Assembly: GCA_029060755.1 (NCBI GenBank)
Contig: JAIDTI010000014.1
Span: 1-51,566, forward strand
Direction: 5' to 3'
DNA from: Ruminococcus sp.
GTDB lineage: Bacteria; Bacillota; Clostridia; Oscillospirales; Ruminococcaceae
Length of the DNA stretch: 51,566 nucleotides
Positions 10,986 through 36,997 of the stretch are shown piece by piece. Both the position numbers and the translations under genes were made by a program. Each line of letters opens with the position of its first letter. Within the stretch, counting starts at the first letter, position 1. The notes below the pieces were generated by a model that ran no database searches, was not told the DNA's origin, and saw only the letters and a list, made by a program, of their open reading frames with translations.

Positions 10986-11000
10986 AAAATCCCTCCTTTA

Positions 11001-11252
11001 TCAAACAAACATAAGTTCTGTTCTGTTTGCGATTTTAAGTTCCCTGAAAGTTTTATTCTGTGGAAGGCTTTCACCTTTATCACGCATACACAATATATTT
11101 ACATCACCTTTGCAGTAAAATCCTTTTGATATTTCTGCAAAAAGTTCTGCCATTACATTTACAGCATCATATATATACATATTTTCAGGCACTCTTATAT
11201 CATACGTTCTGCCGTCGGCTGGCAGATAAACCTGTACTATTATCTTATTCAT
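11001..11252 (-). CDS. esaB: YukD/EsaB ubiquitin-like protein
   Basis: An 83-residue protein of the size and pattern of YukD/EsaB, the small ubiquitin-fold cytoplasmic protein always found with Firmicutes type VII secretion. It has a beta strand IIVQVYLP, then a DIRVP strand, a helix, and the late segment TFRELKIANRTELMFV, which matches the family ending (short helix, then a final strand). It sits directly before essC with a 15-base gap, the usual neighbour. In other species the protein affects secretion or expression of some substrates. Family assignment is by pattern and context, both strong. Confidence 0.85.
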   Translation of the reverse strand: MNKIIVQVYLPADGRTYDIRVPENMYIYDAVNVMAELFAEISKGFYCKGDVNILCMRDKGESLPQNKTFRELKIANRTELMFV

Positions 11253-11277
11253 AAAAATCTCCGTTCTGAATATGATA

Positions 11278-11317
11278 ATATGCTGTCCTGCTCATTTGCA
11301 CAAGAAGAACAGCATAT
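11278..11317 (+). terminator. hairpin with T-tract on the plus strand, inside a minus-strand operon
   Basis: A 12-pair stem (ATATGCTGT arms, one G-U pair) in the 71-base gap between the Ig-repeat gene and the yukD-like gene. The run of eight T follows the stem on the plus strand, so it has terminator form for antisense transcription. On the minus strand no T-tract follows, and it may act as a processing or stability element. Confidence 0.45.
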
Positions 11318-11323
11318 ATTTTT

Positions 11324-14300: not shown

Positions 14301-17300
14301 ATTCTTTCTGCTTTGTATCGTTTTCCAGAAAATTCAATAACTGCATTTTCAGGCTTTATTCCTGACGAAACATACTTTCCTTCATTGAACGGCACTTTTA
14401 CAGTAATCTGCTTATTTGCAAATGCACCGAATCCGGTAAAATTCACAATACTCTTGTCAGCATCATCAACAATATATCTTCCGTCAATTTCAGGGGCATT
14501 GTTATCTATATATATTTCTCTGTTTGATTTTTCCGTATGCTCTGCATTTGTATTTCCTGCAAAGTCCGTTGTATTCAATACTACATTCAGTCTGCCATTG
14601 TCAAGAAAAATATACTCCTCTGAAAACACAATATCAATATCCGCTTCTTCCTGAAAACGTATATGCGGAATAAATTTTCTGCTGTCATCTTCATCTGCAA
14701 CAAATTCAAGGTACATTTTACCGCTTTCAAGTGCTGTATTTATGTAGCTTGTCTTGTAATCGCTCAATGCGTCATAAATATCAGCCTTGATATTCTTTCC
14801 GTTTATATTGAAAGACAATGTTTTTACTTTGGATTCAGTCCTGAAATAAAACTTCGGATAATCTTTATAGAAAAACTTCTTTAAATATTCGCCCTCTGTA
14901 AAATCAGCTTCCGCAACTGTCAATTCAGGCTCTGACGGTGCTTTATTGTCGATATTTATATCAACAGCTTCTGTTTCATCTTGTGTAACAGATAAATCTT
15001 CTTTCATGCAGTAATAAAAAGTACTGCTGTTGCCTGCTCTGTCAATAACAGTAACCTGAATTTTGCCTGTATATTCAGAGAGATTTCTTAAATCAAATAT
15101 AACTTCCGTTTCATTGCCGTTGATATTCTTTATTTCCTTTTCATTCTCTCCATATTTAACATACACTGACTCTATGCCCGATTCTGCACCACCTGATTTA
15201 TAAGAGTCAGTATGAACTATTTTTATATCAGGATTTTTGCCATGTTTAATAAATGTACTGTTATCCAGACCAATACATATATTTCCGACTAAAATATCTT
15301 CCACCTGCGGTGCATATGTATCAATTTTTACATTTACATTTTCAGAAGATGTATTATTGTTATAGTCTGTTGCGGAGACTTCTAAATCTTCATTCATACC
15401 CTTTATACTGTCTGATAAAGTAACAATTGCTTCAAAGTCTCCATAAGTGTCAAGAGGTTTTATAACTGCTGTGTAGTCAAGTCCGTCAACTGAAACAGGC
15501 TTTATGATTTTTTCAGAACCCCAACCTTTTGCTGGTCTGTTGAATGTCAGTCCGCCTATACTTATCTTTGAGATTGAATTTACATCAGGATTTTTACTTA
15601 CATCAGTATATTTTTCTGCAACATTTTCAGAAACGTTGTCAATAATATTAAATCTGAAATTATATGTACCTGCTCCATTTTCATCAGTTTTATTTGACCA
15701 GCCATTATCATTATAATTAAAAACAATGTAATTTCTGTCAACAGTTACAACAGGTGCTTTTTTATCAACATAAAGATAAACAGGCTTTGTCAGTTTTGCA
15801 GACGAAACAGAAACAATCTCATTATCCTCATTATACTGAATATCAAACAAGCCTTGTATCTCAATTACTTCCTCATCACCAACATCTTTCAAATCAAGAA
15901 TATTATTTTCTACAGCAATAAACTCTGATTCACCGTTATGAACTGTAAGAAAATACTTGCCCTCAAATTCGTCACTAAATTTCAACTCTGCATTGTTGTC
16001 TATAATTATAGAATTGTCATTTCTTTTTCCGCCGTTTGCCACTACACTGTTAATTATGGTTTCTCCGTCAATTGTACTTTCAGTTTCCGCAAAAGTTCTG
16101 TATACTGTGCTTATTTTAATACCGTCAAAATAGTCAATATCCCTGTTGTACGGGTCGTCTTTCAGGCTGTTCATTATGTCAGTAGCGATAAAATCTTTTG
16201 ACGGATTATAGCTGTAGTTTATTCTTGAAAGATAAAATAAAGCATCTGCTTCTCTTGTAAGAAGCGGTATTTTTACCTTGTTATTCTCAACAGAATAATT
16301 TTCAGATTTAATAATACTGCCTGTATCATCAATATAAATAACATTGCTTTCAACTGTATCAGGTATATTCAATATATTGATGTCTATAACTGTGTCATCA
16401 GAATTATAGTCAATATCAGCATTTACAGCTTCAAGAAGTTCTTTTACAGAACACTGATAATACCAGCTTATGACTTTTCCGTCATTTGTAAGCGGAACAT
16501 CATTAAGAGAAATCCCCTTTCCAAAACTGAAATCAATTCTGTCTGATTCAATATCAATCCAGTTTCCTTCAATGCTGTTGCGAATATATGATATTCTGCC
16601 GTCATGATAAAGTTTCATGATGATTTTATCATCAACAGAAAAATTGATTCTGAATTTTTTCTTTTTAATGGAAAAAAGTGAGTTTCTGTGTTCATTGTCG
16701 CCATTCATAGTAACCGAAACAACAGATTTATCATTTACAGAAACAGGCGTGCGGACTGTAACTTTATTCTCAATATTAAGGCAGTTAAGATAATATCCAG
16801 CTTTTATTTTAAATGATTCAGCAGTCAGCTCTGTTCCGTCTTTTACATATTCTGCTCCGTCATCTGTCTGCTTTATATTCTCTCTGTTTATTTCAAAACT
16901 TTCCACCGGAGAACTATTCTCTATCTCAAATTTATAATACTTTTCAGAATTTACAACAGATTTTTCAGCATCTATTGTAAATACATAGTAAGTATTTCCT
17001 ATAACTTTTTCAAATGTAATGTCAGACAGAAAGCTTTTTATCTCATTATAGACATAATCCTTATTATACTCATATGCCTTGTATGAAATTCTGATATTAC
17101 CGTTGTCATCTGAAAAATAACAGTCCTGCGGTTTATTCTGCATACTGTTCAGATGATTGACTATTTCATTGACTGCGATTTTGTCGTAAACAAAAACAGT
17201 ATCAGTATAATCTTTAGTTTCAACGTAAACACTATCTGAATCCGCTGTTTTATTGGTATCAGCGGTTTTTTGCTGATTTGATGCAAATTCAACAGCTATA

Positions 17301-17392
17301 ACATTTGCCGTATTGCAGTTTGTAACAGCAAGAAAAGATAATGATGCTATAAATGCTGTTGTTTTTCTAAGCATTTTTTTCTTGATATTCAT
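11324..17392 (-). CDS. giant Ig-repeat cell-surface protein with C-terminal membrane anchor
   Basis: A 2022-residue exported protein. An N-terminal signal peptide (KKK, then a hydrophobic stretch to about residue 35) is followed by an approximately 500-residue unassigned region. About ten beta-sandwich repeats of 100-130 residues follow, each with a D-x-AGN or DNSGN turn and an ID-x-x-x-P-x-I joint (for example DFAGN, DNAGN, DLAGN, DIAGN, DKAGN). Near the C-terminus are one membrane segment and a short RKRKQK tail, so the bulk is outside the cell. It is the largest gene of the T7SS operon, between the small membrane protein and the yukD-like gene, with an AGGAGG-type site seven bases before the ATG. 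No EsaA/YueB homologue is present, so it may fill the large outside-domain role; that is inference. Adhesin is the alternative. Confidence 0.85.
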   Translation of the reverse strand: MNIKKKMLRKTTAFIASLSFLAVTNCNTANVIAVEFASNQQKTADTNKTADSDSVYVETKDYTDTVFVYDKIAVNEIVNHLNSMQNKPQDCYFSDDNGNIRISYKAYEYNKDYVYNEIKSFLSDITFEKVIGNTYYVFTIDAEKSVVNSEKYYKFEIENSSPVESFEINRENIKQTDDGAEYVKDGTELTAESFKIKAGYYLNCLNIENKVTVRTPVSVNDKSVVSVTMNGDNEHRNSLFSIKKKKFRINFSVDDKIIMKLYHDGRISYIRNSIEGNWIDIESDRIDFSFGKGISLNDVPLTNDGKVISWYYQCSVKELLEAVNADIDYNSDDTVIDINILNIPDTVESNVIYIDDTGSIIKSENYSVENNKVKIPLLTREADALFYLSRINYSYNPSKDFIATDIMNSLKDDPYNRDIDYFDGIKISTVYRTFAETESTIDGETIINSVVANGGKRNDNSIIIDNNAELKFSDEFEGKYFLTVHNGESEFIAVENNILDLKDVGDEEVIEIQGLFDIQYNEDNEIVSVSSAKLTKPVYLYVDKKAPVVTVDRNYIVFNYNDNGWSNKTDENGAGTYNFRFNIIDNVSENVAEKYTDVSKNPDVNSISKISIGGLTFNRPAKGWGSEKIIKPVSVDGLDYTAVIKPLDTYGDFEAIVTLSDSIKGMNEDLEVSATDYNNNTSSENVNVKIDTYAPQVEDILVGNICIGLDNSTFIKHGKNPDIKIVHTDSYKSGGAESGIESVYVKYGENEKEIKNINGNETEVIFDLRNLSEYTGKIQVTVIDRAGNSSTFYYCMKEDLSVTQDETEAVDINIDNKAPSEPELTVAEADFTEGEYLKKFFYKDYPKFYFRTESKVKTLSFNINGKNIKADIYDALSDYKTSYINTALESGKMYLEFVADEDDSRKFIPHIRFQEEADIDIVFSEEYIFLDNGRLNVVLNTTDFAGNTNAEHTEKSNREIYIDNNAPEIDGRYIVDDADKSIVNFTGFGAFANKQITVKVPFNEGKYVSSGIKPENAVIEFSGKRYKAERITENEAVFVIPDIDPENDTSFVADGKLTVTMTDNAGNSSAKTVLHAENNTEDIMFEHIKPIISDAEIMGENMFVNGAGEKWFGSDIQISSSISDEQSGIAKTIFSRYNVDDNSRDETVKTYEDAKTASDKYISSTETGRDGRYIFTVEVFDNAGNYDKKETEIYKDTNAPYISGFNFDWYNLEENKKYESFNIAPNMSDRFSHFFESDTTMTIFVRDDKGASSGIKSISCVLYNTDGTVFKSEESRNIDFDETNNVYSCDFVIPEGFKGDIKAWATDNVNNKSDEKSPDGYASENDERHRATSDINISIPKTDNKDSAGLPLYNSDVTASIRVTDSFSGVKRVEWLTSDFEGWRSIEIDGNGYMSGDADGWNIDTRERNLATSVSASITVSKDANNDFIRFRVFDNSGNYTESETYFSIDKQKPVITIDGIKHHEEKQYYNTNQKVNVTISERNFNAPVINGQADNEFKLSENSRTGTDEQKYIKTFTYDKDGTYSFDIENTDLAGNKSDSFSSGEFVIDKTNPVVSVEFVKDDKTKVNPLETSYIDSPVKAVISVNEVNFDSSKIMINGKPSDAKWTDSGNIHTLEIPYNDNKSYTLTISGKDIAGNVMNEYSAGFIVDGADPEITAKSFSEANKGDVDISLSIKESNIDTYEAVLYRNGRICDCVYDAENDCYKFSIASGKYVTGRWNIINSENMEFVFDDFPHDEAFDGMYQLKIDVADKSSRKQSLEKSFSVNRFGSVFEIQEYESINGNYLNYTPEIVIKERNIDKHKDGSKPVIMINKGTQTVELTTDMYKISEPQLLSDKSGYEYTYTISSDNFKENVRYQIAVKSVDKAGNENVSEKRGADIEFNVDTRPPEPICDELDDNNDKTFKGAEKEFTINVSEPLKNIRVTIDSQAEPLLEKEFEYGTDEKAHRFIVNASDDKRNITVELTDFAGNTTKKEYNEVRVTENMLLIMLSKSWVKIAGIISACVAVVSALGVIFIRKRKQK

Positions 17393-17413
17393 ATAAAATC
17401 CTCCGAACAGAAT

Positions 17414-17878
17414 CTATCTGCTTAAATGTCTTCTGGTAACTTCGTCGGGACTGCCATTTATTACCATTATTTCTTTTACTATAATAAAATCATTTTCATT
17501 CTTTTTCAATTCAGGCTTACTGTTCACTATAACTGTCACATTGCTTTGTTCTCCGCTGTTGCTTATAACAGTAGCACTCTGCTGTGGTTCTTCTTCCTTT
17601 TTCTGCAAAACTGTTCCGCTGTTATCATCAGAACTGCTTTCCGTAATTTCAGACTGCTTGTTTTCAGAACTGTATGTATAGGAATTTTTCTTTCTGTTTT
17701 CAACATAAGCAAAATATTCATCACCGTCTGAAAATATCTTCTCCCTGCGGATTTTCATATTTGATTTGATTATCGACAAAAGTTCAAATTTAATTGCAAA
17801 TACGATTGTAAGAGCAAGAAAAATCATTCCCGATACAAAAAATGCAATTGATATAATGTGCAGTGTTTCAGAATCCAT
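17414..17878 (-). CDS. small single-pass membrane protein of the T7SS-type operon
   Basis: A 154-residue protein that I do not recognise. It has one membrane segment (about residues 8-32), a basic stretch (KIRREK), and then a long polar, Ser/Glu-rich and probably disordered tail. It lies between the kinase (14 bases upstream) and the Ig-repeat gene (21 bases downstream) in the same orientation, with AAGGAGT before the ATG, so it is part of the operon. The disordered cytoplasmic tail, rich in Ser/Thr, could be a substrate for the neighbouring kinase. Size and topology recall EssA, a one-pass protein of T7SSb, but I see no sequence resemblance to claim. Confidence 0.75.
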   Translation of the reverse strand: MDSETLHIISIAFFVSGMIFLALTIVFAIKFELLSIIKSNMKIRREKIFSDGDEYFAYVENRKKNSYTYSSENKQSEITESSSDDNSGTVLQKKEEEPQQSATVISNSGEQSNVTVIVNSKPELKKNENDFIIVKEIMVINGSPDEVTRRHLSR

Positions 17879-17892
17879 AAATCCACTCCTTT

Positions 17893-19599
17893 TCAGTCAG
17901 CATATGCCATGTCAACCCTTGACCTTACAGCTTCTATATTGAATTTCTCCGCCATTTCCTGATACATTTTTTCTACATACACAATTTCATTATCTTTATT
18001 GTAAACTCTGTCATTTATCTGATTAATAATTGCTGTCTGTTCTTCATATGAAACACCGCTTTGATTAAAGCGCAGGGCATATCTTGAAATAAAGTTAAGA
18101 AGTGTCTGGCAAGCTCTTGCACTTACTGCCTCATTTGTATCATCAACATCATTTTTTAACTCTGAAATACTCTGCCATATACTCATATAGTATGCGTTGT
18201 CTGCTTCTCCCTCTTTGCCTTTGCGGTCGATTTCACGATAAACTTTGGAAATATTATAGAACGTATTTGCACGGTTAAACTGATTCGGATTGCTTTCCCT
18301 GAAATTCTCATCAGATTTAGCCTTCTCAAACCACTCATAAGATGCATTTATTCTTTGTTCTTCAAGTTCTGTATCATTATATTCATCATTCTTATTATAC
18401 AACGGATAATAATAAAGCCAGTATGCAAGACCTATTTCATACATGATTTTACCATAATTATCGTCTGTTTCTTTTATATATGTATCACCCATGTACTTTA
18501 TGTTATTGTTTATAAAAGCGTCTTCCTTTGCATCAAGTTTTTCGTCATCTGTAAAGCTTTCAATAAGATTTATATAGATATTATCCCTGTTTGTATGGTC
18601 TATATTTACCGCTTCAGCATAAAGTCCATTTGCCACATATTCTCTGTAGAGATTTTCATTATTATTCTTGTCTACTGTTTCAGATGCAAAAGCTGTAGAA
18701 AAAGATATAGTAAAGCAAAGCAACGTCATCACAAAAGAAAATACAATCATACGCATATGGGAATGTTTTTCCATACGGCACAAATCCCTGTAAAGTGCCT
18801 CACACGAACTGTAACGCATATCAGGTTCATCAGCAACACATTTTTCTATTATTTTTCTTACTTCAACATTGACGTTCTTGTCAAATCTGAATCTTTCTGC
18901 CGAACTCAACATTCTGCTGTCGCCCGTGATACGTGCAGGCTTTTTTCCGTTTATCATATGGAAAAACGTTGCACCTATATTATAAATGTCTGTCCGTTCA
19001 TCAAGCTTTGAGCTGTAATATTGTTCAGGAGAAGCATATTCGGGAGTATAGCCTATACCACCTGTTTCAACTTTTACCGCTGTACCAAAATCAATGAATT
19101 TAAGCTTAAGATTCTTTTCTTCCTCATTTTTATCAACAAAAGTTGTACTTGGTTTCAGTACCATTATATTTTCAGGCTTCATATCGCTGTAAACTCTGCC
19201 TGTATCGTGAAAGAATTTCATGAAAGAACATATCTGCTTTGCAGCATTTATAAAAACTTTATATGGCAAAGGTCCTGCATCAAGCATTTCCTTCATGGTT
19301 TTTCCGTCAAGATAATCCTGCACTATATAAAAATATTCGGGGTCATTGTCTACCCTCTGAATTATATTAGGGAAAAAAGCATTTGATATATCTCTTTCAT
19401 AAAGTTCTTTTATGAGCTTTGATTCAAGCATAGCTATTTCATATTCTGCTGTATCTGACTTCCTGATTTTCTTTATGGCTCTTACAGCATTTTCAGCCTG
19501 CAAATCATACGCTTTATAAACTTCCGATTTATTTCCCTTGCCGACAAGTTCAGCTATTTTATAGCGGTTTTCCAATATTATTGGTTTGTCCTTTGCCAT
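17893..19599 (-). CDS. membrane Ser/Thr protein kinase with helical extracytoplasmic domain (EssB-like layout)
   Basis: A 568-residue protein. Residues 12-280 form a Hanks-type kinase: glycine loop GKGNKS (20-25), ATP-binding K43, catalytic loop YSDMKPEN with D139 and N144, DFG at 170-172, and an SPE-type activation segment end. The usual HRD is YSD, so the arginine is missing but the catalytic aspartate is present. A single membrane segment (about 283-306) is followed by about 260 outside residues, helical and TPR-like (AYEWFEKAKSD-type repeats), instead of PASTA domains. Kinase fold plus membrane segment plus helical outside domain is the layout of EssB/YukC, in which the kinase is dead. 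Here the key residues are kept. A PP2C phosphatase gene sits 6 bases upstream and FHA proteins are nearby. Confidence 0.9.
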   Translation of the reverse strand: MAKDKPIILENRYKIAELVGKGNKSEVYKAYDLQAENAVRAIKKIRKSDTAEYEIAMLESKLIKELYERDISNAFFPNIIQRVDNDPEYFYIVQDYLDGKTMKEMLDAGPLPYKVFINAAKQICSFMKFFHDTGRVYSDMKPENIMVLKPSTTFVDKNEEEKNLKLKFIDFGTAVKVETGGIGYTPEYASPEQYYSSKLDERTDIYNIGATFFHMINGKKPARITGDSRMLSSAERFRFDKNVNVEVRKIIEKCVADEPDMRYSSCEALYRDLCRMEKHSHMRMIVFSFVMTLLCFTISFSTAFASETVDKNNNENLYREYVANGLYAEAVNIDHTNRDNIYINLIESFTDDEKLDAKEDAFINNNIKYMGDTYIKETDDNYGKIMYEIGLAYWLYYYPLYNKNDEYNDTELEEQRINASYEWFEKAKSDENFRESNPNQFNRANTFYNISKVYREIDRKGKEGEADNAYYMSIWQSISELKNDVDDTNEAVSARACQTLLNFISRYALRFNQSGVSYEEQTAIINQINDRVYNKDNEIVYVEKMYQEMAEKFNIEAVRSRVDMAYAD

Positions 19600-19605
19600 G
19601 ACAAA

Positions 19606-20376
19606 TCAGTCTCCTTTATATTTCACTGCAACTGCTGTTATATTATCACGTTCCTTGCGGTTCATATTCAGTTCAAGAAGATAATCAAGATTTTCATGAA
19701 TTATATCGCTGTTGATATTCACATCAGGCGAAAGACATTCAAGAATTTCATCTTTTGTTATCATTTTTCTGAATCCGTCCGTACAAAGCATATATATACA
19801 TTCTTTATCAGGCTTCTGAATGATATAATCGTAAACTCTGCCTGTTTCGCCTGCTCCCATGCAGTTTGTTATCTGATTCTGTCGCTTGTCAAGTCTTGCT
19901 TCTTCTTCTGTAAGCTTTCCACTCCGGACTTCTTCTGCAACAACAGAATGGTCGGAAGTTACAATCTCTGCTCTGTCGGAAAAAATCTTGTAAAATCTTG
20001 TATCTCCGACGTGTGCAACAAGAACGGAATCAAGTATCGGGTCTATTATAACAGAAGTGTAAGTCGTTCCCATAGGTTCTGCCAAATCATTAAGTTCATC
20101 ACTTAGTCCGTGCAGAAATACATCAAGACTTTTTCTTACAGCAAGAATATTTTTGCCCTCTTTAAGCATAGCGGAGTATTCTTTTTCAAACCACCTTGCA
20201 ACCTCTGATATAACAAAGGCACTTGCCGTTTCACCCTTTGGCAATCCGCCTATACCGTCAGCAACAGCCATGAACAGTATCTGTTTATTCTTGTATTCCG
20301 CAATTTTAATAAGCAGTGCGTCCTGATTTATTTTTTTAACTGTACCTTCTGTTGTCACATAAGAAAAATCAAACAT
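19606..20376 (-). CDS. PP2C-family Ser/Thr protein phosphatase
   Basis: A 256-residue soluble phosphatase of the PPM/PP2C family (Stp/PrpC type), which removes phosphate from Ser/Thr using two metal ions. Metal-binding motifs are visible: NQDA near residue 18, VADGIGG near 40, HVGDTRFY near 125, CTDGF near 200, and the C-terminal RDNITAV. The length is typical. It lies between the FHA gene (16 bases) and the kinase gene (6 bases), so it almost certainly reverses the action of that kinase. The start has GGAGTGAG five bases upstream. Confidence 0.93.
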   Translation of the reverse strand: MFDFSYVTTEGTVKKINQDALLIKIAEYKNKQILFMAVADGIGGLPKGETASAFVISEVARWFEKEYSAMLKEGKNILAVRKSLDVFLHGLSDELNDLAEPMGTTYTSVIIDPILDSVLVAHVGDTRFYKIFSDRAEIVTSDHSVVAEEVRSGKLTEEEARLDKRQNQITNCMGAGETGRVYDYIIQKPDKECIYMLCTDGFRKMITKDEILECLSPDVNINSDIIHENLDYLLELNMNRKERDNITAVAVKYKGD

Positions 20377-20392
20377 AAATTCTCACTCCGAA

Positions 20393-21766
20393 TCAGTTTT
20401 CGACAGTGAATGTATATAATTCACCATTTACAGATAATGTACAGCCTGAAAAAATTTCCACTTTCTCCCCTATCGGCACATCTATATTTTCAAGTCTGAG
20501 GGAATTGCATGAGGTATTCTCCATATACAACAGAGTTTCACCAGCGTGCTTTTTCTCAAAAAATATTATATCAGAAAGTTCCTTGCTTGAGAACGGATAA
20601 TGCCTGATTGTTATTACATTGTCATCAGATACTTTCTTTATATAAGCAAGTGTTCTGTCATCATCTTCATTTAATAAATCAAAATTAATATAGTCTGAAT
20701 CCTGAACATCAATTTGTGTTTTTGAAGTTTTGAAAATGTATCTGTTCATAGCAAAAAAAATACTGTTTCCATCAACAATTCTTGCTCTTAGAATTTTGTT
20801 GTCAATATCATTAAGATATGTTCCGTTGCTTGAATTATTATCCACTATGTAATATTCTCCGCTGTCATGAATAATCTGTGCATGGTGAGATGAAATCATA
20901 CTATCACTTAAAACAAAATCGTTGTCTTTGCCTCTGCCTATTCTGAACGGATTTTTTGTTATCTCAATCTTTTTTCCTGTCATATCCATAAGAAACGGCG
21001 AACCGGGCAAAGATGTTCTTATTCTTATGACAGTTGCACTGCTGTCTTCTTCCGGAATAACAGGTTTTTCATGTGATTTTTCGGGAATATCAGTATCTTT
21101 CAACGGCTCATTGATTATCTGTTTTTCTATTTCATATCTTTCAGAATCAGTCTCATTTTTTATTATAGAATCAGATTTTTTCTTTTTAACATATCTCATC
21201 TCACTTAAAAGACGATACAAGGCATCAGGAGTAAAATTCTGCTCGTCTTTTTTGAGTTTGTCAAGATAATTTTCATATTCATTAATAAAACTGCCGTCTG
21301 TTATACTGATTCTTGATTTTTTATGTATATCCAGAAGACACTTTACAGCACTTCCGTTTATAAACTTATTATCATCATTCCTTAAAGGTACATAAGCCAT
21401 CATCACTTTACCTGTTATATTATGATAATACATATATTTCGGATTGAATATAAGATTCTCCAGCTGGAAAAAGTGCTTCTGACAGAAAGAAGTTATCCTC
21501 TGTATATCAGAAATAATGCTGAAATACTGTTCCTGCTTAATATCAACTTTTAAAAATTCAGAAAGTGATGTAAGTCCTGATATATTAAAATTTATCTTAC
21601 CGCCTTTGCCTGTTTTTGTACATTTAAAAGGTACAAAAAAATCATAAAACTGATTATCGTTAAAACTTTGAATCTGCGTAAGATTCATCTGTCTTTTTTT
21701 GCCAAAAGAGTATACAAGATATGTTTCAGTTTTTGAATAAATCTCCTTGAAATTAAAAATACCCAT
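20393..21766 (-). CDS. FHA-domain protein with DUF6382-like N-terminal region
   Basis: A 457-residue cytoplasmic protein. Residues about 1-175 resemble the DUF6382 region that precedes FHA domains in many Clostridia; its SFCQKHFF...LIFNPKYMYY segment recalls the kinase-like fold of EssB. Residues about 245-345 form a clear FHA domain (FRIGRGKDND, SSHHAQI, NSSNGTYLND). A second beta-rich segment (about 370-455) may be another FHA-like fold. It is the first gene of the kinase/phosphatase/T7SS operon, right behind a SigA-type promoter. It probably binds phosphothreonine made by the kinase two genes down. The DUF assignment is from memory of the family pattern. Confidence 0.82.
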   Translation of the reverse strand: MGIFNFKEIYSKTETYLVYSFGKKRQMNLTQIQSFNDNQFYDFFVPFKCTKTGKGGKINFNISGLTSLSEFLKVDIKQEQYFSIISDIQRITSFCQKHFFQLENLIFNPKYMYYHNITGKVMMAYVPLRNDDNKFINGSAVKCLLDIHKKSRISITDGSFINEYENYLDKLKKDEQNFTPDALYRLLSEMRYVKKKKSDSIIKNETDSERYEIEKQIINEPLKDTDIPEKSHEKPVIPEEDSSATVIRIRTSLPGSPFLMDMTGKKIEITKNPFRIGRGKDNDFVLSDSMISSHHAQIIHDSGEYYIVDNNSSNGTYLNDIDNKILRARIVDGNSIFFAMNRYIFKTSKTQIDVQDSDYINFDLLNEDDDRTLAYIKKVSDDNVITIRHYPFSSKELSDIIFFEKKHAGETLLYMENTSCNSLRLENIDVPIGEKVEIFSGCTLSVNGELYTFTVEN

Positions 21767-23725: not shown

Positions 23726-26700
23726 TTATTTCTTTTCGTCGAATGTTACCCACTGATAGTGTGCAGTGAGAGGAGTGTTGCCATTGAAAGGCTTGAGCCA
23801 TTCATCAACAGTAATTCCAGGCCATGTATTCATCATGATTCTGCCGGGTGTACTTGGAATATTTGATGTTGCTCTGTAAACTTCCTTGCCGTCAACATAC
23901 CATGCAATATAATCAGGCTGCCAGTCAAAACCGTATGTATGGAATCCCTCTGAAGCATCAAAGCCGAGGTCATACATAAACTCATGATTGCCTACACCGT
24001 TTGTATAGTAGTTAAGCTGTACCTTTGTTGTGTCTTTGCCGAGAATCTCAATATCGATTTCGTCCCAAGGATTCTGCTCTGATTCACCTGTATATGTAAA
24101 GAATGATGAAACAACACCGTCATTCTTTATAGCCTGCATAGATGTTTCATAGTAGCCATAGCCGTAATGCTCATGTGTTCTGTACTCTGCACCTGAATAG
24201 TTATACTGTCCGCTGTGGTCTTTGTCAATTGTAAGGCTGAGCATACCGTTGTCGAGAGATGTGTTCTGCTCATACCAGCCACAGTCAAAACAGCTTCCGT
24301 TTGTCCAGCCGTCAGAAGCAAAGAACAATTTTGAACTGCCGTCTCTGAAATCTTCAACTGCTGTAGCATTAGCGTTCATAGGTGTACCATAATCCTTGAT
24401 GCCGTTGTTTGTGTTTTCAGTTACAGTAGTAGTTGTTGTTAATTGTGTGCTGACTTCTGTAGTAGTTGTAGTCTGCTGTGGTGTTGTAGTTGTCTGTGGA
24501 TTTTCTGTACCAGGAAGTTCACCGACTGGGAGAGAGGCTATCATCTTTGCTTCGAGCATCTGAATTGCAAGAGCGTCCATACCTGTTACACCGTCACCAA
24601 CATTATAGCAGTCACCATTTATCTCGCCTTTTTCGGAAAGTCCATATTTATCCTTATTTCCAAGAGCCTGAATGATTGCAGTAGCATCAGCAATATTTAC
24701 TTCACCGTCGCAGTTTGCATCACCGTAAAGTACATCACCGCTTGGATTTGACGGATTTGTCGGGTTGGTCGGGTTTGTTGTACCCTGATTATTATTTGCT
24801 GAAGTATCACCTGTAAGTGTGATAAGATATGTAAGAGGTGAGTTCCAGTAGATTGTGATTTCATTTGTTGAGTAGCTTTCTGAATTGTCAACCCAGCACT
24901 TTGCAGGTGCAGACTTTTTGCAGTATGCCTTTGCAGCAGGGTCTTCAAGTCCCTGATTTACACCGCCTACAAGCATACCTGGCATTGCTGAACCTACAGC
25001 CATTGACGGACGGTGATGCGGATTTTCTGGTGAAACTGTACCATATCCTGTTACAAAGCTTGTGCCAAGAGGATTTGAGCCAAGAAGATAGTCAAGCTGT
25101 GCTGTTGAAGCATCAAGATATTTTGATTCACCTGTAAGCTTATATGCAAGATTAAGAATAATACCAGCATTTGCAATTGTCATGTTGCTGCCCCAGTTGT
25201 ACTTTGTAAGTGATGAGCCATATGGATTAGCAGAAGATACACTAGCTAAAGTATCTGCCTGCTTCTTTACAGCAGAGAGAGCATTTGTGTAAATATCTGA
25301 ATTTTTATCAATATCTTTCATTGTGAGGATTGCAATATTTCCATAGTCGCCGACTGTTGCCCAGTCAAGACCTGTCTTTACTGCAACTCCGTCCATGTAT
25401 GATTTTTCACCTGTTGCACGGTAAAGCTGTGCGGCTGCCCAGTACATTTCATCTGCTGCTGTCTTGTCTTCATATGCACCTGTTACAATATCATCAGGAT
25501 TTGCAAGATAAAGCTTGTCGGGATTAGCCTTTGCCCATTCATAAGCCTTTTTAGCAGCTTCAAGACAAGTATTTGCAAAGTTTGCATCAATATCCTTGTA
25601 AACTTCATAAGCAAGTGCCATAGATGCGGCAAAATCAGCAGATGAAGTAACTGTTTCAGGCATTACGATAAGTGGCTTTGTTTCTTTTTCAGGCATTACA
25701 TATCCGGGGAATGTATCACATGAAACTTTGTGATATACACCGCCTGTTGACTTGCTCTGCATTTTGAGCATCCATTCAAGTTCGTAGCGTACTTCGTCAA
25801 GAACATCAGCAGTACCGTTTCCGCTTTCAGGAATACCAATATTATCGCTGTAATCTGACGGATTTGCCATATAAGCATACATAAGATCTGCAACAGCTTT
25901 CGCAGCAGGTACTATATATCTTCCGTAGTCACCAGCATCGTGCCAGCCGCCGTTTACATCAATTTTTTCGTCTGTATGATAGATTGTAGCGATTGTATCG
26001 TGGCATGAAGCGTGACCGAACTTGTCGTCTTTAACTTCTGTTCCGCAACGCTGGAGATAAAGCATTTTCACACTTGCATCAAGAAGATTATTATAAACAT
26101 TTTCACTGATTTCAAATGTATATGAATTATCAAGTCCGCCGTATGAAACATAGTATTTTCCAGGAGTTTTAAGCTCTGAAAAATCAGCTACATAGTTCAT
26201 TTCATCAGCCTGTGTATTATTGATACTCTCTGAAACAACACCATGATAAGCTACTTCCTTTGTATCAGCATTTACAACAGAAAATTCATTTGTATTTACA
26301 GCATCAGCATTTCTGATTACAGCAAATTTCTTTGCATCAGGTCTGTAGCCAATCTGATTTGTAATAATCGGAGGAGCATATGGAGCATTTGCATTGTAGT
26401 CTACCTTGCTGTCGTCAATAAGTTCAAGTACAACATTGTCAAGATAGATTGTATGTTCACCAACAGGACCGCCGTCCTCTTTTTCCTGAAGTCCGCAGTT
26501 GAAACAGAATTTTGTCATGATGTCTGTATCATATTCCATTTCAAACTCATATTCAACTTTCTGTGGCTCTGTTGTAACATCGATTCCTTTCCATGTATAA
26601 GCCTGATATGTACCGCCGTTCTGCTGAATCATTGATTCTACAAAGCGTGGAACAGTAGATGAAATCTCATATGAGAGACGATATACACCGTTCTTATAAA

Positions 26701-26977
26701 GTGCGACAGGCTGGTCATAGCACATCTGAACAGCATAGTTGAGTGTACCTTGATTTGCAACTTTAAGTGCAAGTTTGCCATTTTCTGTTGTAAGTGTACA
26801 AGCACCACCGCTTTCTTTGTATGTACCCCAGTCCGTTGTGCCGTTGTTGAACTCTCCGTTTGTAAAAAGGTTTTCAGCAGCAAATATATTGCTCATAGGT
26901 ACTAACGGCATAGCAGAAGCCATAAGAACACATGAAGCAAGTGCAGCAAAACCCTTTTTCAAGTAATTTTTCTTCAT
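23726..26977 (-). CDS. modular cellulosomal enzyme: CBM, Ig-like, GH9 cellulase, dockerin, GH16 glucanase
   Basis: A 1083-residue secreted enzyme that should cut cellulose and mixed-linkage beta-glucan. In order: signal peptide (about 1-33), CBM4/9-like beta-sandwich (about 34-190), CelD-N Ig-like domain (about 200-290), and GH9 (about 295-720). GH9 shows [10 protein letters not shown] near 347, HHRPS near 654, and [10 protein letters not shown] near 705 with the acid Glu. A dockerin with two calcium loops ([10 protein letters not shown] and a second DG loop) lies at about 750-820, then a Thr-rich linker, and GH16 (about 865-1083) with the active site DEIDIEILG near 974. The start at 26977 is favoured by GAGAGGG eight bases upstream; the ATG ten codons earlier has none. 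The dockerin would plug the enzyme into a scaffoldin. It lies between the two catalytic domains rather than at an end. Confidence 0.95.
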
Positions 26978-27132
26978 ATCAAAAACCCTCTCAAAAAAAT
27001 TTTTCATTAAAATTTATCGCATAAGTGCTTAATTATGTGATATATCCACTAATAATATTCTATATAATTTATAATAATATGTATATTATTTTCGTGACAA
27101 AAATAGTAAAATAATGACTTTTTTTATTTAAC

Positions 27133-33223: not shown

Positions 33224-33556
33224 CTAACTATTACAATAGATTAATACAGTAATAAGTGCAAGAATTACTGCAATTATTCCTGAAATCAGCCATATTTTCT
33301 GTTTTGAAACATTACGCTTTTTCATTACAAATACAGCTAAATATACAAGCTGATATATAAGGCATATCGGAATTACAGGATAATAACACAATAAAAGCGT
33401 CATAAAAATTATACCGTTTGTAAAAGCATTAAAGCCGTATGATGTGACGAATATAAAACCAAATCCGAAGAAAGCTGAACACACACCATAAAGCAGAACA
33501 AAAACATATGGTGCAAAAGAGAGTATAAGTATTATTTTTGGAATCTTGTTTTTCAT
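33224..33556 (-). CDS. small membrane protein, tandem family member 4
   Basis: A 110-residue protein with three predicted membrane segments. I do not know the family. It shares with its three upstream neighbours the blocks KIPKIILILSFAPY-FVLLYG, SAFFGF, YGF-AF and PVIP-CLIYQLVYL. The start at 33556 has AGGGTGA upstream; a longer frame to 33634 would run into the next gene. It is the last of four genes in one run, and its stop is two bases from the convergent GHL10 gene, so the two transcripts must share a terminator or overlap. The first 75 bases are nearly identical in DNA to the starts of the genes at 33571 and 33915, a sign of recent duplication. Confidence 0.75.
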   Translation of the reverse strand: MKNKIPKIILILSFAPYVFVLLYGVCSAFFGFGFIFVTSYGFNAFTNGIIFMTLLLCYYPVIPICLIYQLVYLAVFVMKKRNVSKQKIWLISGIIAVILALITVLIYCNS

Positions 33557-33570
33557 ATAAATCACCCTCT

Positions 33571-33900
33571 CTAAAAATGTATAAAAGATACAGCAATAAT
33601 TATGAGAATCAATGCAATAACAGAGGAAATCCATAAAACAGTCTTTTTCGGGACGTTATGCCTGTTCTTTATTATAAGCACTGTTAAGTATACAAGCTGA
33701 TATATAAGACATATTGGAATTACAGGAAAGTAACATAACAAAATCGTCATAATAATTATACTGTCACTGAATCCCTGAAATCCATATGATGTAGCGAAAA
33801 ATTCAAATCCGAAGAAAGCTGAATACACACCATAAAGCAGAACAAAAGCATAGGGTATAAAAGAGAGTATCAGTATTATTTTTGGTATCTTCTTTTTCAT
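33571..33900 (-). CDS. small membrane protein, tandem family member 3
   Basis: A 109-residue, three-segment membrane protein, closest to the downstream copy at 33224-33556 (about two residues in three identical by eye). The same family blocks are present: FIPYAFVLLYG, SAFFGF, YGFQGF and PVIPICLIYQLVYL. The ATG at 33900 is five bases after GGTGGGAG; the GTG four codons before it overlaps that site and is unlikely. Gaps to its neighbours are about 14 bases. The function is unknown; a small hydrophobic protein in a multigene array could be an immunity or envelope-stress protein, which is a guess. Confidence 0.75.
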   Translation of the reverse strand: MKKKIPKIILILSFIPYAFVLLYGVYSAFFGFEFFATSYGFQGFSDSIIIMTILLCYFPVIPICLIYQLVYLTVLIIKNRHNVPKKTVLWISSVIALILIIIAVSFIHF

Positions 33901-33914
33901 ATAATCTCCCACCT

Positions 33915-34451
33915 TTACAAGTAAAATATTTCACGCAGTTTTGAAATCGGATTTTTTATAGTATGCTTTTTAATTATTAAGCTGATTAAACATACTAACT
34001 GATAAGCAAGGCATGGTGGAATTACAGGATAAAAGCATAAATATTTAGTTTCCTCAACCACTGCTTCACAAAAAGCATTAACGCCGTAAATTGTATGACC
34101 TATATCCCTGAACCCTGCAAAAGCTGAATATATGCCATAAATTAAAACAAATGTGTAAGGAAGAAATGAAATCAATAAAACTATTTTTTTAATAATCTTT
34201 AAAGTATTGTCCTCTATATTACATTTTCTTTTCAGAAAATATGCTGTCTGATAAATCAGGCAGACAGGAATTACAGGAATACTGCATAATATCCACAGTG
34301 CCAGAATAATGGTGCCGACAAACGCTTCAAATCCATAAACTGTACTAAAAAACGTAAAACCTGCAAAAGCTGAATACACACCATAAAGCAGAACAAAAGC
34401 ATATGGTGCAAAAGAAAGTATAAGTATTATTTTCGGAATCTTCTTTTTCAT
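33915..34451 (-). CDS. small membrane protein, tandem family member 2, internally duplicated
   Basis: A 178-residue protein that contains the family unit twice. Unit one (about 1-88) and unit two (about 89-178) each carry LSFAPY/LSFLPY-FVL-YG-YSAFAGF, a YG-AF block and a CxxPVIPxCL-YQ block. It therefore looks like an in-frame fusion of two tandem copies with loss of the stop and start between them. About six membrane segments are expected. The ATG at 34451 follows GGGGTGA; a GTG three codons earlier is possible. Its first unit is nearly identical in DNA to the starts of members 3 and 4. Confidence 0.75.
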   Translation of the reverse strand: MKKKIPKIILILSFAPYAFVLLYGVYSAFAGFTFFSTVYGFEAFVGTIILALWILCSIPVIPVCLIYQTAYFLKRKCNIEDNTLKIIKKIVLLISFLPYTFVLIYGIYSAFAGFRDIGHTIYGVNAFCEAVVEETKYLCFYPVIPPCLAYQLVCLISLIIKKHTIKNPISKLREIFYL

Positions 34452-34463
34452 ATAAATCACCCC

Positions 34464-34808
34464 TTAAGGAGAATCCCATTGCGATAAAAGTTTGAGCAGA
34501 AATACTGTAAGCAGGCTAAAAATTATTACTGCTGATACAACAGCCAGTATTTTTGCTGTCTTTTCAGAAATATTCAGCTTTTTCAGCATTAAATTAATAA
34601 CAATTCCCGCATGAAATGCAACAGATAACGGAATTACAGGGAATATAGCACCAAGTGTCAACAGCGTAACAAGAAAGTAAATTGAAAACGAACTGAAAAA
34701 ACCGTATTGAGAAGCAACCCTGATAGCTAAAATGACAGGAATTATAAATAATATGCAGTATGGCACGACTGATAAGACTGATACAACTTTAACTATTTTC
34801 TTTTTCAT
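34464..34808 (-). CDS. small membrane protein, tandem family member 1 (most divergent)
   Basis: A 114-residue protein with three predicted membrane segments. It keeps the family skeleton MKKKI-K, LSVVPY, YGFF and FPVIPLS but has drifted strongly from the other three. The ATG at 34808 follows AGAGGGGA; a longer frame to 34838 has no ribosome site. It is the first gene of the array, with two nested inverted repeats about 60 bases upstream (34867-34893) that could be a regulator site. No function is known. Confidence 0.72.
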   Translation of the reverse strand: MKKKIVKVVSVLSVVPYCILFIIPVILAIRVASQYGFFSSFSIYFLVTLLTLGAIFPVIPLSVAFHAGIVINLMLKKLNISEKTAKILAVVSAVIIFSLLTVFLLKLLSQWDSP

Positions 34809-34866
34809 GCAAATCCCCTCTTTTGTATATTTTACCATAAATATACATCAAAAGAAAGATGATAAA

Positions 34867-34943: not shown

Positions 34944-36017
34944 TTAGAAGAGTATGTCTTTAAAGCAAAGCTGTGGCTCATGTTTATCAAAATCCCAGCT
35001 ATGATATGCGTCGCCGTGACATCTGCAATTTTCCGAACAATTACGGCATTTTTCGTTTTCATCAGCAAGATTTTTTCTGAATATCTGAAATTTATTCTCC
35101 CAAACGTCCTTGAATCTGTCAGTTAAAATATTTCCCTGAATAAATTCGGGACGGCGTTCAATATCAAGACAAGCTGTAATATCGCCGTTTGCCATGATAC
35201 TTGCAATATATGTACCAGCTGTGCAGATATAGTACCAGTCACGCACTTCATGTTCATATTCCATACCAAGATAATGACTACAGCCGTATGTAACAGGCTC
35301 TCCTGCAATTCTCTTGTTTCGGATATACTCAAACATATACTTATAGTCGTCATTAGTGAGAATAAGTTCGGGGTGCTGTTTTGCACGTCCAATAGGCTCT
35401 ATATTGATAATTCGCCATGAATCAATATCCATATCATTGAAAATCTTGTAAAGTTCATCAAGCTGTCCGATATTCTGATGTGTTACAACTGTTGTTATCT
35501 GAACATTCTTGAATCCGCCTACACGGATAAGACTTTCAACTCCGTTCAAAGCACGTTTCCAGCCTCCTGGAGTACGTCTGAATGCATCATGTGTTTCCTC
35601 CAGTCCATCAATGCTTATGGATATAGTTTTCATGCCGACACGTCTTAAATCTTTTGCAACTGAATCATCAATAAGTGTACCATTGCTTGTCATTCCCCAG
35701 CTGAAACCAAGTTCATTTGCAACACTCATAATATCAAAAAATTCCTTACGCAAAAGCGGTTCACCGCCTGTTATACAAAGCATTTTATCTGCTGTACCAA
35801 AATCGCCCTTTATTTCAGCAAGAAATTTTGCGTACTGGTTAACTGTCAGCTCATCAAGCATTACATCTCCGCAGTTGCTTCCGCAATGCAGGCATCTTTC
35901 ATTACAGCGCAAAGTCAGCTCAAGAAAAAGGTGTCGGAGCTGTGGTTTAATCATAAGTCCTGCTCTGTACGCTTCAAGCGTTTTCATATTATCTCTTTTT
36001 ACATTTTCATCAAACAT
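34944..36017 (-). CDS. radical SAM/SPASM peptide maturase
   Basis: A 357-residue enzyme. The radical SAM motif C38-x3-C42-x2-C45 binds the catalytic iron-sulfur cluster; GGEPLLR near residue 85 and the ISIDGLEETHDAFR block near 134 are typical of the PqqE-like group. The C-terminal part (about 245-352) has the many cysteines of a SPASM domain (CSHY, CTAG, CLDI, KCRNCSENCRC, final C), which holds extra clusters and marks peptide-modifying enzymes. Its gene starts 12 bases after a secreted YGPP-repeat protein with AAGGAGA before the ATG, and a strong terminator follows. The neighbour is therefore the likely substrate. A TIGRFAMs family named FibroRumin from Fibrobacter and Ruminococcus comes to mind; I could not check it. 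Confidence 0.93.
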   Translation of the reverse strand: MFDENVKRDNMKTLEAYRAGLMIKPQLRHLFLELTLRCNERCLHCGSNCGDVMLDELTVNQYAKFLAEIKGDFGTADKMLCITGGEPLLRKEFFDIMSVANELGFSWGMTSNGTLIDDSVAKDLRRVGMKTISISIDGLEETHDAFRRTPGGWKRALNGVESLIRVGGFKNVQITTVVTHQNIGQLDELYKIFNDMDIDSWRIINIEPIGRAKQHPELILTNDDYKYMFEYIRNKRIAGEPVTYGCSHYLGMEYEHEVRDWYYICTAGTYIASIMANGDITACLDIERRPEFIQGNILTDRFKDVWENKFQIFRKNLADENEKCRNCSENCRCHGDAYHSWDFDKHEPQLCFKDILF

Positions 36018-36029
36018 TGTTAAATCTCC

Positions 36030-36857
36030 TTAATTAAATGCAATCGGTGCGCCATATTCTGGCTGTGGAACAGGTTCTGTAGTTGTATTTGGTGTTGTTA
36101 CTGTTGTTTGAGTGGTAAACCATGACGGCGGACCATAAACAGGTGCAGGAATTGTATTCTGTGTTGTTGTTACTGTATTGACGGTTGTGTTATCATAGTA
36201 ACGTGTTGTTGTCGGCTGAGGTTCAGGAATGATATTATCAGAGAAATTATCAATCTTGCCAAGAAGATAATTATTGAGCATTACAAGGTCTGCCATACCA
36301 ACCTGTCCGTCATTATTCACATCTGCCATATACTGCTTATAGTAGTCCGTTGTACCATCAAGCAACATTTTTCTGAGTTCGATAAAATCAAAAACATCAA
36401 TTTTACCGTCAGCATTAATATCTCCAATCGGCGGAGGTCCATAAACAGTAACCATATCTGTAGTGGTTTCAGTTATCGGGTTTGACATTGTTGTTGGTGC
36501 TGTGGTTGTTGTTTTTGTCTGTGTTGTGGAATAGTCCGGCGGTGGACCATAAACACAAGCCATATCTGTAGTAGTTTCAGTTATAGGGTCTTTAGCTGTT
36601 GTCTGTGTCTTTGTTGTTGTGGAATAGTTCGGTGGCGGTCCATATACTCCCGCAAGTTCTATGGTGGTTTCAGTTATCGGGTCTGTGACTGTTGGCGGTG
36701 TTGTTGTCTCCTCAATAACAGGCGGTCCATAAGCATCCTGCATCTGCTCATCTGACGGCACATAATCGGCATTGCCTGCTACTGCTCCTGTCGAAGTAGC
36801 ACTGATAGCCGATGCAAATAATGCTGCCATAAGAATGGTTTTCGGTGTCTTTTTCAT
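36030..36857 (-). CDS. secreted dockerin protein with repeated YGPP motifs, likely substrate of the radical SAM enzyme
   Basis: A 275-residue exported protein. A signal peptide (about 1-28) is followed by Thr/Pro-rich sequence with YGPP at residues 43, 72, 103, 139 and 241 and YGAP at 268. Three of these end near-identical 31-36-residue units (DPITETTTDM-x-x-VYGPPP). A dockerin domain with calcium loops D146-D157 and D179-D190 sits between the fourth and fifth motif. The start at 36857 is preferred, as AGGAG is nine bases upstream; an ATG two codons earlier is too close. The Tyr-Gly-Pro-Pro motifs look like repeated cores for a tailoring enzyme, and the radical SAM/SPASM gene follows after 12 bases. 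The dockerin would let the product join a cellulosome. Catalytic domains are absent. The modification itself is inferred. Confidence 0.88.
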   Translation of the reverse strand: MKKTPKTILMAALFASAISATSTGAVAGNADYVPSDEQMQDAYGPPVIEETTTPPTVTDPITETTIELAGVYGPPPNYSTTTKTQTTAKDPITETTTDMACVYGPPPDYSTTQTKTTTTAPTTMSNPITETTTDMVTVYGPPPIGDINADGKIDVFDFIELRKMLLDGTTDYYKQYMADVNNDGQVGMADLVMLNNYLLGKIDNFSDNIIPEPQPTTTRYYDNTTVNTVTTTQNTIPAPVYGPPSWFTTQTTVTTPNTTTEPVPQPEYGAPIAFN

Positions 36858-36997
36858 ACACATATGCTCCTTTCAGAATTTATAATAGTGTGCTGATTCC
36901 ATTATATAATATAAATGTCAAAAAAACAGCAACTTTTTTCTAAAACCGAAAAAGTTTGTATGATTGCACAAAATAAATCATCACAACTTGTAAGATA

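Follow-up and report, generated by a model that had tools for sequence, protein, structure and literature searches.

The PlpXY spliceases of Pleurocapsa are among the closest described systems. As published, PlpX, together with its RRE partner PlpY, cuts tyramine out of Xaa-Tyr-Gly, and the backbone is rejoined as an alpha-ketoamide (PMC11002830; PMC10533398). The natural sites of PlpXY are given as MYG and LYG, and the tags that it accepted inside FtsZ contain PIRPGYGLPI, but several other tags and positions in FtsZ were rejected, including tags with LYGLPI or GYGLPI (PMC10533398); the motif alone is thus insufficient for PlpXY. Splicease chemistry, already known, is termed widespread in nature, and PlpX has been placed in IPR026482 (PMC11002830); the resulting spliceotides are reported to inhibit proteases (PMC11117315).

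The stretch of DNA analyzed here, the window, comprises 51,566 nt of Ruminococcus sp. (GCA_029060755.1, contig JAIDTI010000014.1, positions 1 to 51,566, forward strand) and includes a gene for a secreted dockerin protein with repeated YGPP motifs, followed by a gene for a radical SAM/SPASM enzyme. The best explanation of this pair is, in our judgment, a two-gene protein-editing module with splicease chemistry, export, docking, and possibly protease inhibition; we give this explanation as a whole a probability of roughly 0.58.

Results

Layout of the locus and the YGPP sites

The features of the locus are collected in Table 1. The initial annotation had described six motif sites in the 275-residue protein, with three of them closing similar Thr-rich units, a dockerin in mid-protein, and an enzyme twelve bases downstream that has a CxxxCxxC motif and a SPASM end. 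All of this held on re-reading: the site positions agreed exactly, the units ending at residues 72, 103, and 139 are of the type [DN]PITETT...VYGPPP, the dockerin match is above its cut-off, and the enzyme contains CNERCLHC at residues 38-45 in addition to its two Pfam matches. More conserved cysteines of the enzyme lie beyond the SPASM region, at residues 333 and 351. An alternative ATG start of the substrate gene is found two codons upstream, at 36863, and an AAGGAG sequence starts within the precursor stop codon and extends into the gap before the enzyme ATG. No Pfam match to a Nif11 or NHLP leader was found in the window precursor; its N terminus is signal-peptide-like and is a candidate recognition region for the enzyme.

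Table 1. Features of the precursor-enzyme locus, in window coordinates
Feature	Position	Strand	Basis
Substrate gene, secreted dockerin protein, 275 aa, six YG[PA]P sites	36030..36857	-	translation, Pfam
Signal-peptide-like N terminus, part of consensus MKKTxKTALTAAxFAAA	36771..36857	-	consensus, 135 precursors
Site 1, A-YGPP, residues 43-46	36720..36731	-	motif
Site 2, V-YGPP, residues 72-75	36633..36644	-	motif
Site 3, V-YGPP, residues 103-106	36540..36551	-	motif
Site 4, V-YGPP, residues 139-142	36432..36443	-	motif
Type I dockerin	36261..36425	-	PF00404, 45.1 bits, cut-off 22.9
Site 5, V-YGPP, residues 241-244	36126..36137	-	motif
Site 6, E-YGAP, residues 268-271	36045..36056	-	motif
12-base gap, precursor stop to enzyme ATG	36018..36029	-	sequence
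Radical SAM/SPASM enzyme, 357 aa, proposed YG-site modifier	34944..36017	-	Pfam, tree, predicted model
Radical SAM domain, residues 33-191, CNERCLHCGS at 38-47	35445..35921	-	PF04055, 78.1 bits
SPASM auxiliary-cluster region, residues 265-327	35037..35225	-	PF13186, 38.2 bits

Six YG[PA]P motifs in 275 residues are not a chance occurrence, because 20,000 shuffles of the protein's own residues yielded a maximum of two. The sites are also conserved: between the window protein and six close orthologues, identical residues account for 138/140 comparisons at the YGxP columns, 743/900 in the linker, and 264/336 in the dockerin. Over 150 precursor ORFs, YG[PA]P occurs 427 times, against a shuffle mean of 1.5. 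In this set, which was chosen for at least one YG[PA]P, xG[PA]P begins with Y in 427 of 428 cases, and Yx[PA]P has G in second place in 427 of 436; the nine sites lacking Gly are YEAP (four), YSAP (two), YYAP, YAPP, and YIAP (one each). Different residues precede Tyr-Gly (n = 574; V 291, L 118, A 43, and E 20). A near-invariant Tyr and Gly after a variable residue is what is expected for X-Y-G sites, and the partner sites do have the X-Tyr-Gly form of PlpXY-type spliceotide systems. Among the 120 homologues listed of the 204 found, the number of YG.P motifs ranges from 0 to 7 per protein; 118 have at least one, 80 have three to six, and 35 have a single one.

Pairing of the enzyme and precursor

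A profile scan of public genomes gave 445 relatives, from which the 80 top-ranking loci were selected. In 79 of these 80, a YG[PA]P protein is encoded directly upstream of the enzyme; the exception (L078) has merely 189 bases upstream of the enzyme. Two or more YG[PA]P genes are present in 41 of the 79 loci, with eight in one of them (L071), and the motif is absent from all 784 other ORFs of at least 100 aa (275,553 aa) in these loci. Across 125 Ruminococcus genomes, 62 contain the enzyme and 33 match the precursor query, and 32 of those 33 also have the enzyme (Fisher p 1.7e-11). In the one exception (G876), the precursor match runs to base 20 of its contig, and the genome is 74% complete. 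The precursor query misses 30 of the 62 enzyme-bearing genomes, which we read as low sensitivity of the query because of the 79/80 found by the locus-level check. It is thus very highly probable that the enzyme and the YG[PA]P protein are an enzyme-substrate pair. The initial annotation had suggested this and had proposed listing the neighbors of all homologues as a check; both the 79/80 adjacency and the co-occurrence in the genus bear it out. Its further suggestion that each YGPP is a modification site is made likely by the site conservation and the pairing.

The search of the class covered 391 genomes and found the enzyme in 16 of them (8 genera) at E 1e-60. At the 15 class loci besides the one in the window, a YGPP protein lies beside the enzyme in 12, and a Y-G-x-P protein is next to the enzyme or one gene off in 14. 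Eleven of these loci (L122-L132) encode small YGPP proteins, mostly lipoprotein-like, in which Tyr is the second residue past the apparent lipobox Cys in seven; the precursor of one (L124) is cut by a contig edge. Three others are weaker cases because Tyr-Gly alone is common: YGMT and YGVP in a gene that follows the enzyme (L133), an adjacent YAPP protein followed by YGSP (L134), and AYGID only (L135). At the remaining locus (L136), the partner contains GCGMYGPP and, after it, a region that matches TIGR04134 at 52.3 bits (cut-off 39.8); it thereby links the YGPP lipoproteins of Clostridia with the family in Bacteroidota.

Regular-expression typing assigned a dockerin to 56 of 135 precursors and none to the other 79, and it marked 40 as lipoprotein-like; at 27 of the 74 loci where a precursor was typed, only precursors lacking a dockerin were present. 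The dockerin is therefore optional, many partners being small lipoproteins, and its candidacy as an essential part was rejected since the motif is also found without it. The initial annotation had the dockerin carrying the modified chain to a scaffold; the genome does encode cohesins that a dockerin could bind (seven matches above cut-off, all on contig C17).

When neighboring ORFs of at least 70 aa were clustered over 69 loci, the precursors formed the largest cluster (58 loci), followed by UvrA-like (14), UvrB-like (12), FtsW-like (12), and, in varied places, ABC-transporter-like ATPase (10) ORFs, these names coming from our reading of the sequences. No cluster other than the precursors occurred in more than 14 of the 69 loci, and none of the same-strand ORFs of 35-150 aa located within 1.5 kb recurred in more than 5 of the 80. 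Because no other gene recurs widely, the module looks to consist of two genes, with no protease, transporter, or RRE as a constant member. Neither survey, of ORFs of at least 70 aa in 69 loci or of small ORFs in 80, found a PlpY- or RRE-like gene recurring beside the enzyme. The sole PqqD match in the genome is on a different contig (C84), beside ORFs that we read as HPr-kinase-like and signal-peptidase-like; an RRE partner may be used in trans.

Family assignment

The best NCBIfam match of the window enzyme is TIGR04133, at 272.3 bits and below the cut-off of 425. Its score against TIGR04103, which we take to be the same family as IPR026482, is 108.6 bits (cut-off 725), and heme b synthase AhbD (142.5 bits) and MftC (135.6 bits) score higher. 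By themselves, the HMM scores do not point to TIGR04103 in particular; this, the nine sites above that lack Gly, and the lack of a PlpY count against a splicease reading. Further points against it are the AYGID-only locus (L135) and, as described below, the Treponema site and the variable Gly of the sister group. The enzyme has the Radical SAM motif, SPASM cysteines, and fold of peptide- or protein-modifying SPASM enzymes, with the predicted model resembling the peptide-modifying SPASM fold in a comparison with the PDB. That comparison gave no splicease-specific match, an absence that carries no weight. FibroRumin (TIGR04136, rSAM_FibroRumin), named in the initial annotation as a family that might cover the enzyme, has to be dropped: in a whole-genome search, it did not match the window enzyme at E 0.001, and its sole match was to a different protein on a different contig, at 77 bits (cut-off 400).

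The three best-ranked relatives in a plasmid collection, from Parabacteroides distasonis (35% identity), Treponema saccharophilum (31%), and Phocaeicola massiliensis (32%), are all above the TIGR04133 cut-off. Beside them are TIGR04134-type lipoproteins that start with CEYGSP, CYGMP, and CEYGTP, respectively; in the Treponema partner, the residue preceding Tyr is the apparent lipobox Cys itself, and the Parabacteroides partner also has a CarboxypepD_reg domain. Twenty of 25 homologues of the Parabacteroides lipoprotein keep YG[ST]P; in the remaining five, this N-terminal part is either missing or different. The window protein did not match TIGR04134 at E 1, whereas proteins of four loci (L104, L105, L106, and L136) exceed its cut-off of 39.8 bits. 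Searches of open-licence PMC found nothing on the chemistry of TIGR04133/TIGR04134, on FibroRumin or rSAM-associated lipoproteins, or joining radical SAM/SPASM with dockerin or with R. flavefaciens tyrosine, and YGPP returned only unrelated papers.

A clade shared with PlpX-type enzymes

The window enzyme and the PlpX-type enzymes form one clade apart from the sampled outgroups. A single branch with support of 99/98 separates 32 enzymes from 11 outgroup rows, these being AhbD-like, NirJ, MftC, TIGR04053, and TIGR04347, a minority of the SPASM families; PlpX-like enzymes are represented by a Nostoc TIGR04103 member and not by PlpX itself. Adding three long-branched rows gives a split of 34 versus 14 (97/90), and with PqqE but without the other two long rows, the support is 94/88; in a first, smaller tree, PqqE and an annotated AhbD were not resolved from these enzymes. 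The clade has two internal groups: the YGPP enzymes together with those of TIGR04133 (82/96), and the enzymes of PlpX/GDL type (100/97). Residues G46, S47, and W201 are present in 32/32 enzymes inside the clade and in 0, 2, and 2 of the 11 outside, and E255 is found in 31/32 inside and in none outside; the latter is not placeable in the model because residues 250-269 have a pLDDT under 50.

Partners of 30 of the 32 clade enzymes contain Y-G. The partner in a sister-group locus (L100) has KYAAP repeats, which means that Gly is not fixed in the sister group, and no partner of the Tropicibacter enzyme was recognized. The Nostoc plasmid enzyme (TIGR04103, 853 bits, cut-off 725) has a Nif11 precursor that ends in ALYGLPPELF, and a 71-aa gene without a Pfam match follows. 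Related Bacillota enzymes adjoin NHLP-like precursors with TAYGIARP and LAYGVPIHG, for which the PF02979 matches are weak (20-22 bits, below cut-off), and a related Agathobacter enzyme adjoins GPVMYGTGVRM. Eleven DUF1843 peptides beside TIGR03913-type enzymes have Y-G (six), Y-A (two), or Y-M (three) at the equivalent place.

Discussion

Proposed chemistry and its alternatives

Tyramine excision at each YG by a splicease-like enzyme is probable, going by comparison of sequences; it is our best guess because the clade is shared and the Tyr-Gly site is the same, which is not proof. We infer that, in the cytoplasm, the enzyme would recognize the new secretory protein before export and act at each X-Tyr-Gly-(Pro/Ala)-Pro site. 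Tyramine (C8H9NO, ~135 Da) would be excised from Tyr and the ends rejoined, converting X-Tyr-Gly to an alpha-keto-beta-X-Gly backbone. After export, the dockerin would dock the edited protein on a cohesin, whereas in the sister loci, the lipobox would anchor it. As many as six alpha-ketoamide groups, most of them from Val, could then be present on the finished protein; these might reversibly and covalently inhibit extracellular serine or cysteine proteases that endanger the cell surface and the cellulosome.

The enzyme could instead carry out some other radical reaction centered on Tyr or Gly, such as a Tyr cyclophane or ether crosslink to a residue nearby, oxidative Tyr decoration, or Gly alpha-carbon chemistry, which would stiffen or crosslink a protein of the cell surface or the cellulosome. 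This is the most serious competitor, with a substantial minority chance of being right, but a near-invariant Tyr and Gly with a variable preceding residue, as in the Ruminococcus precursors, suit X-Y-G excision better than a crosslink to a fixed partner, and the clade is common with PlpX-type enzymes. The Tyr crosslink or hydroxylation given as examples in the initial annotation is accordingly less likely than tyramine excision, a chemistry that is published for the related PlpX. It is far less probable still that the enzyme is inactive on YGPP, with the motif serving as a structural or protein-binding element of Thr/Pro-rich linkers and the adjacency reflecting inherited gene order. Such linkers are indeed often found in dockerin proteins, but the adjacency persists across families and into Bacteroidota and Spirochaetota, where the common element is Y-G-x-P near the lipobox and the rest of the substrate differs; moreover, a precursor without the enzyme was seen in the 125 genomes of the genus only in the contig-edge case.

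A variant that overlaps our preferred explanation accepts that tyramine is excised but has the ketoamides acting not as protease inhibitors but as electrophiles through which the protein would be covalently attached or crosslinked, either at the cell surface or in the cellulosome. The multi-site substrates (zero to seven YG.P each among the 120 homologues listed of 204), their Thr-rich linkers, and the position of Tyr two residues past the apparent lipobox Cys in seven class loci would all suit it. We consider it unlikely, in that spliceotides are described as protease inhibitors (PMC11117315), and one repeat protein of the sister group includes an inhibitor domain. This protein is the 316 aa partner adjoining its enzyme at L100, in which a chagasin-type inhibitor domain I42 (PF09394, 37 bits, cut-off 27.2) precedes the KYAAP repeats; the fusion is a single example.

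Function and significance

The proteins described for R. flavefaciens FD-1 include dockerin-serpins, a comparatively large number of putative proteases with dockerins, and 118 dockerin proteins that contain unknown regions (PMC2930009). Returning to tyramine excision as the preferred chemistry, we tentatively suggest that the window protein might be a dockable, multi-site covalent protease inhibitor that protects the cellulosome, although a role in covalent adhesion would also fit. More speculatively, a splicease-like branch that needs neither an RRE nor a RiPP leader (TIGR04133 plus its Ruminococcus sister group) might equip the cellulosomes and surface lipoproteins of bacteria in the gut and rumen with dockable or lipid-anchored, multi-site ketoamide protease inhibitors. 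Tyramine splicing would then modify surface proteins in Clostridia, Bacteroidota, and Spirochaetota and would not be confined to natural products. Dockerin- or lipoprotein-bearing multi-site substrates and a link of TIGR04133 to X-Y-G were not found in open-licence PMC; published splicease surveys may overlap with these proposals.

If true, common bacteria of the gut and rumen would bear a radical-SAM backbone edit on their cellulosomes and surface proteins, a function would be predicted for the uncharacterized TIGR04133 family from its substrate motif, and some of the many R. flavefaciens dockerin proteins whose function is unknown would be explained. Multi-site natural substrates of leader-independent spliceases could also be useful for site-specific protein labelling.

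Comparison with known systems

The window system resembles the PlpXY spliceases in its SPASM enzyme, its X-Tyr-Gly sites, and its place in the same clade in trees, and Y-G-x-P is found both in the Nostoc core ALYGLPPELF and in the published tag RPGYGLPI. It differs in that its precursor has no Nif11 match, is exported by a Sec or lipoprotein-type route, and has many sites per protein plus a dockerin; no RRE-like neighbor recurs, and the enzyme is well below the TIGR04103 cut-off. The TIGR03913 GDL motif peptide maturases with DUF1843 substrates belong to the same clade, and six of eleven substrates have Y-G near the N terminus, but these are small peptides without a signal peptide, are not Pro-rich, and otherwise have Y-A or Y-M. 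The FibroRumin maturase TIGR04136 is likewise a radical SAM family, with a name that suggests Ruminococcus. Serpins are folded suicide inhibitors, whereas the active groups proposed for the window protein would be enzyme-made; the dockerin-serpins of R. flavefaciens FD-1, a close relative, are nevertheless comparable as dockerin-borne members of a protease-inhibitor family (PMC2930009). The TIGR04133/TIGR04134 systems of Bacteroidota and Spirochaetota share the pairing of the enzyme with an exported lipoprotein gene and, in three partners, Y-G-x-P near the lipobox, but those partners have one such site, whereas the window system has many YGPP sites and dockerins.

Candidate substrates at related loci

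The repeat protein at L100, a locus of the sister group, carries a chagasin-type protease-inhibitor domain followed by numerous KYAAP repeats, and its gene lies immediately upstream of the SPASM enzyme ORF. It looks like a second, distinct kind of multi-site substrate. At L134 and L135, loci of other Clostridia, the small proteins beside the homologue of the window enzyme contain YGSP, EYAPP or AYGID and then what is, by eye, a hydrophobic stretch; these are perhaps a substrate type held in the membrane without a lipobox. The Treponema saccharophilum lipoprotein (L105) has an apparent lipobox Cys immediately before the Tyr of Y-G-x-P, and the residue edited by the proposed tyramine excision would thus be the lipidated Cys itself.

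Features at related loci, on other contigs of the same genome and elsewhere in the window
Feature	Location	Strand	Domains or basis
316-aa protein, chagasin-type inhibitor domain and KYAAP repeats	L100 2479-3426	minus	PF09394
Radical SAM ORF, SPASM enzyme of splicease-like clade	L100 931-2460
Small proteins adjoining homologue of window enzyme	L134 1-703; L135 1157-1492	minus
Y-G-x-P lipoprotein	L105 4586-4975
Radical SAM/SPASM protein	C17:82831-83979 (L103)		FibroRumin model, 77 bits
PqqD-like protein	C84 (L143)
Four similar small membrane proteins in tandem, downstream of enzyme	window 33224-34838		by eye
1093-aa protein	window 23726-27007		Pfam: GH9, GH16, CelD_N, CBM_4_9
FtsK/SpoIIIE-FHA protein, Ser/Thr kinase, PP2C-type phosphatase and FHA protein, single run	window 6273-21766		Pfam domains

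Other genes of the same genome

The genome's sole FibroRumin-model match is a separate radical SAM/SPASM protein on contig C17, which reads like a SCIFF-type maturase. The PqqD-like protein of contig C84 is flanked by ORFs that we read as HPr-kinase-like and signal-peptidase-like, and no radical SAM ORF was seen in the 2479 bases of that contig that were covered.

Within the window, the one tandem membrane protein scanned (33915-34460) had no Pfam match at E 1e-5. In the GH9/GH16 protein, a dockerin-like stretch separates the two catalytic domains by eye. The FtsK/SpoIIIE-FHA run resembles a type VII secretion locus, a name that is our inference.
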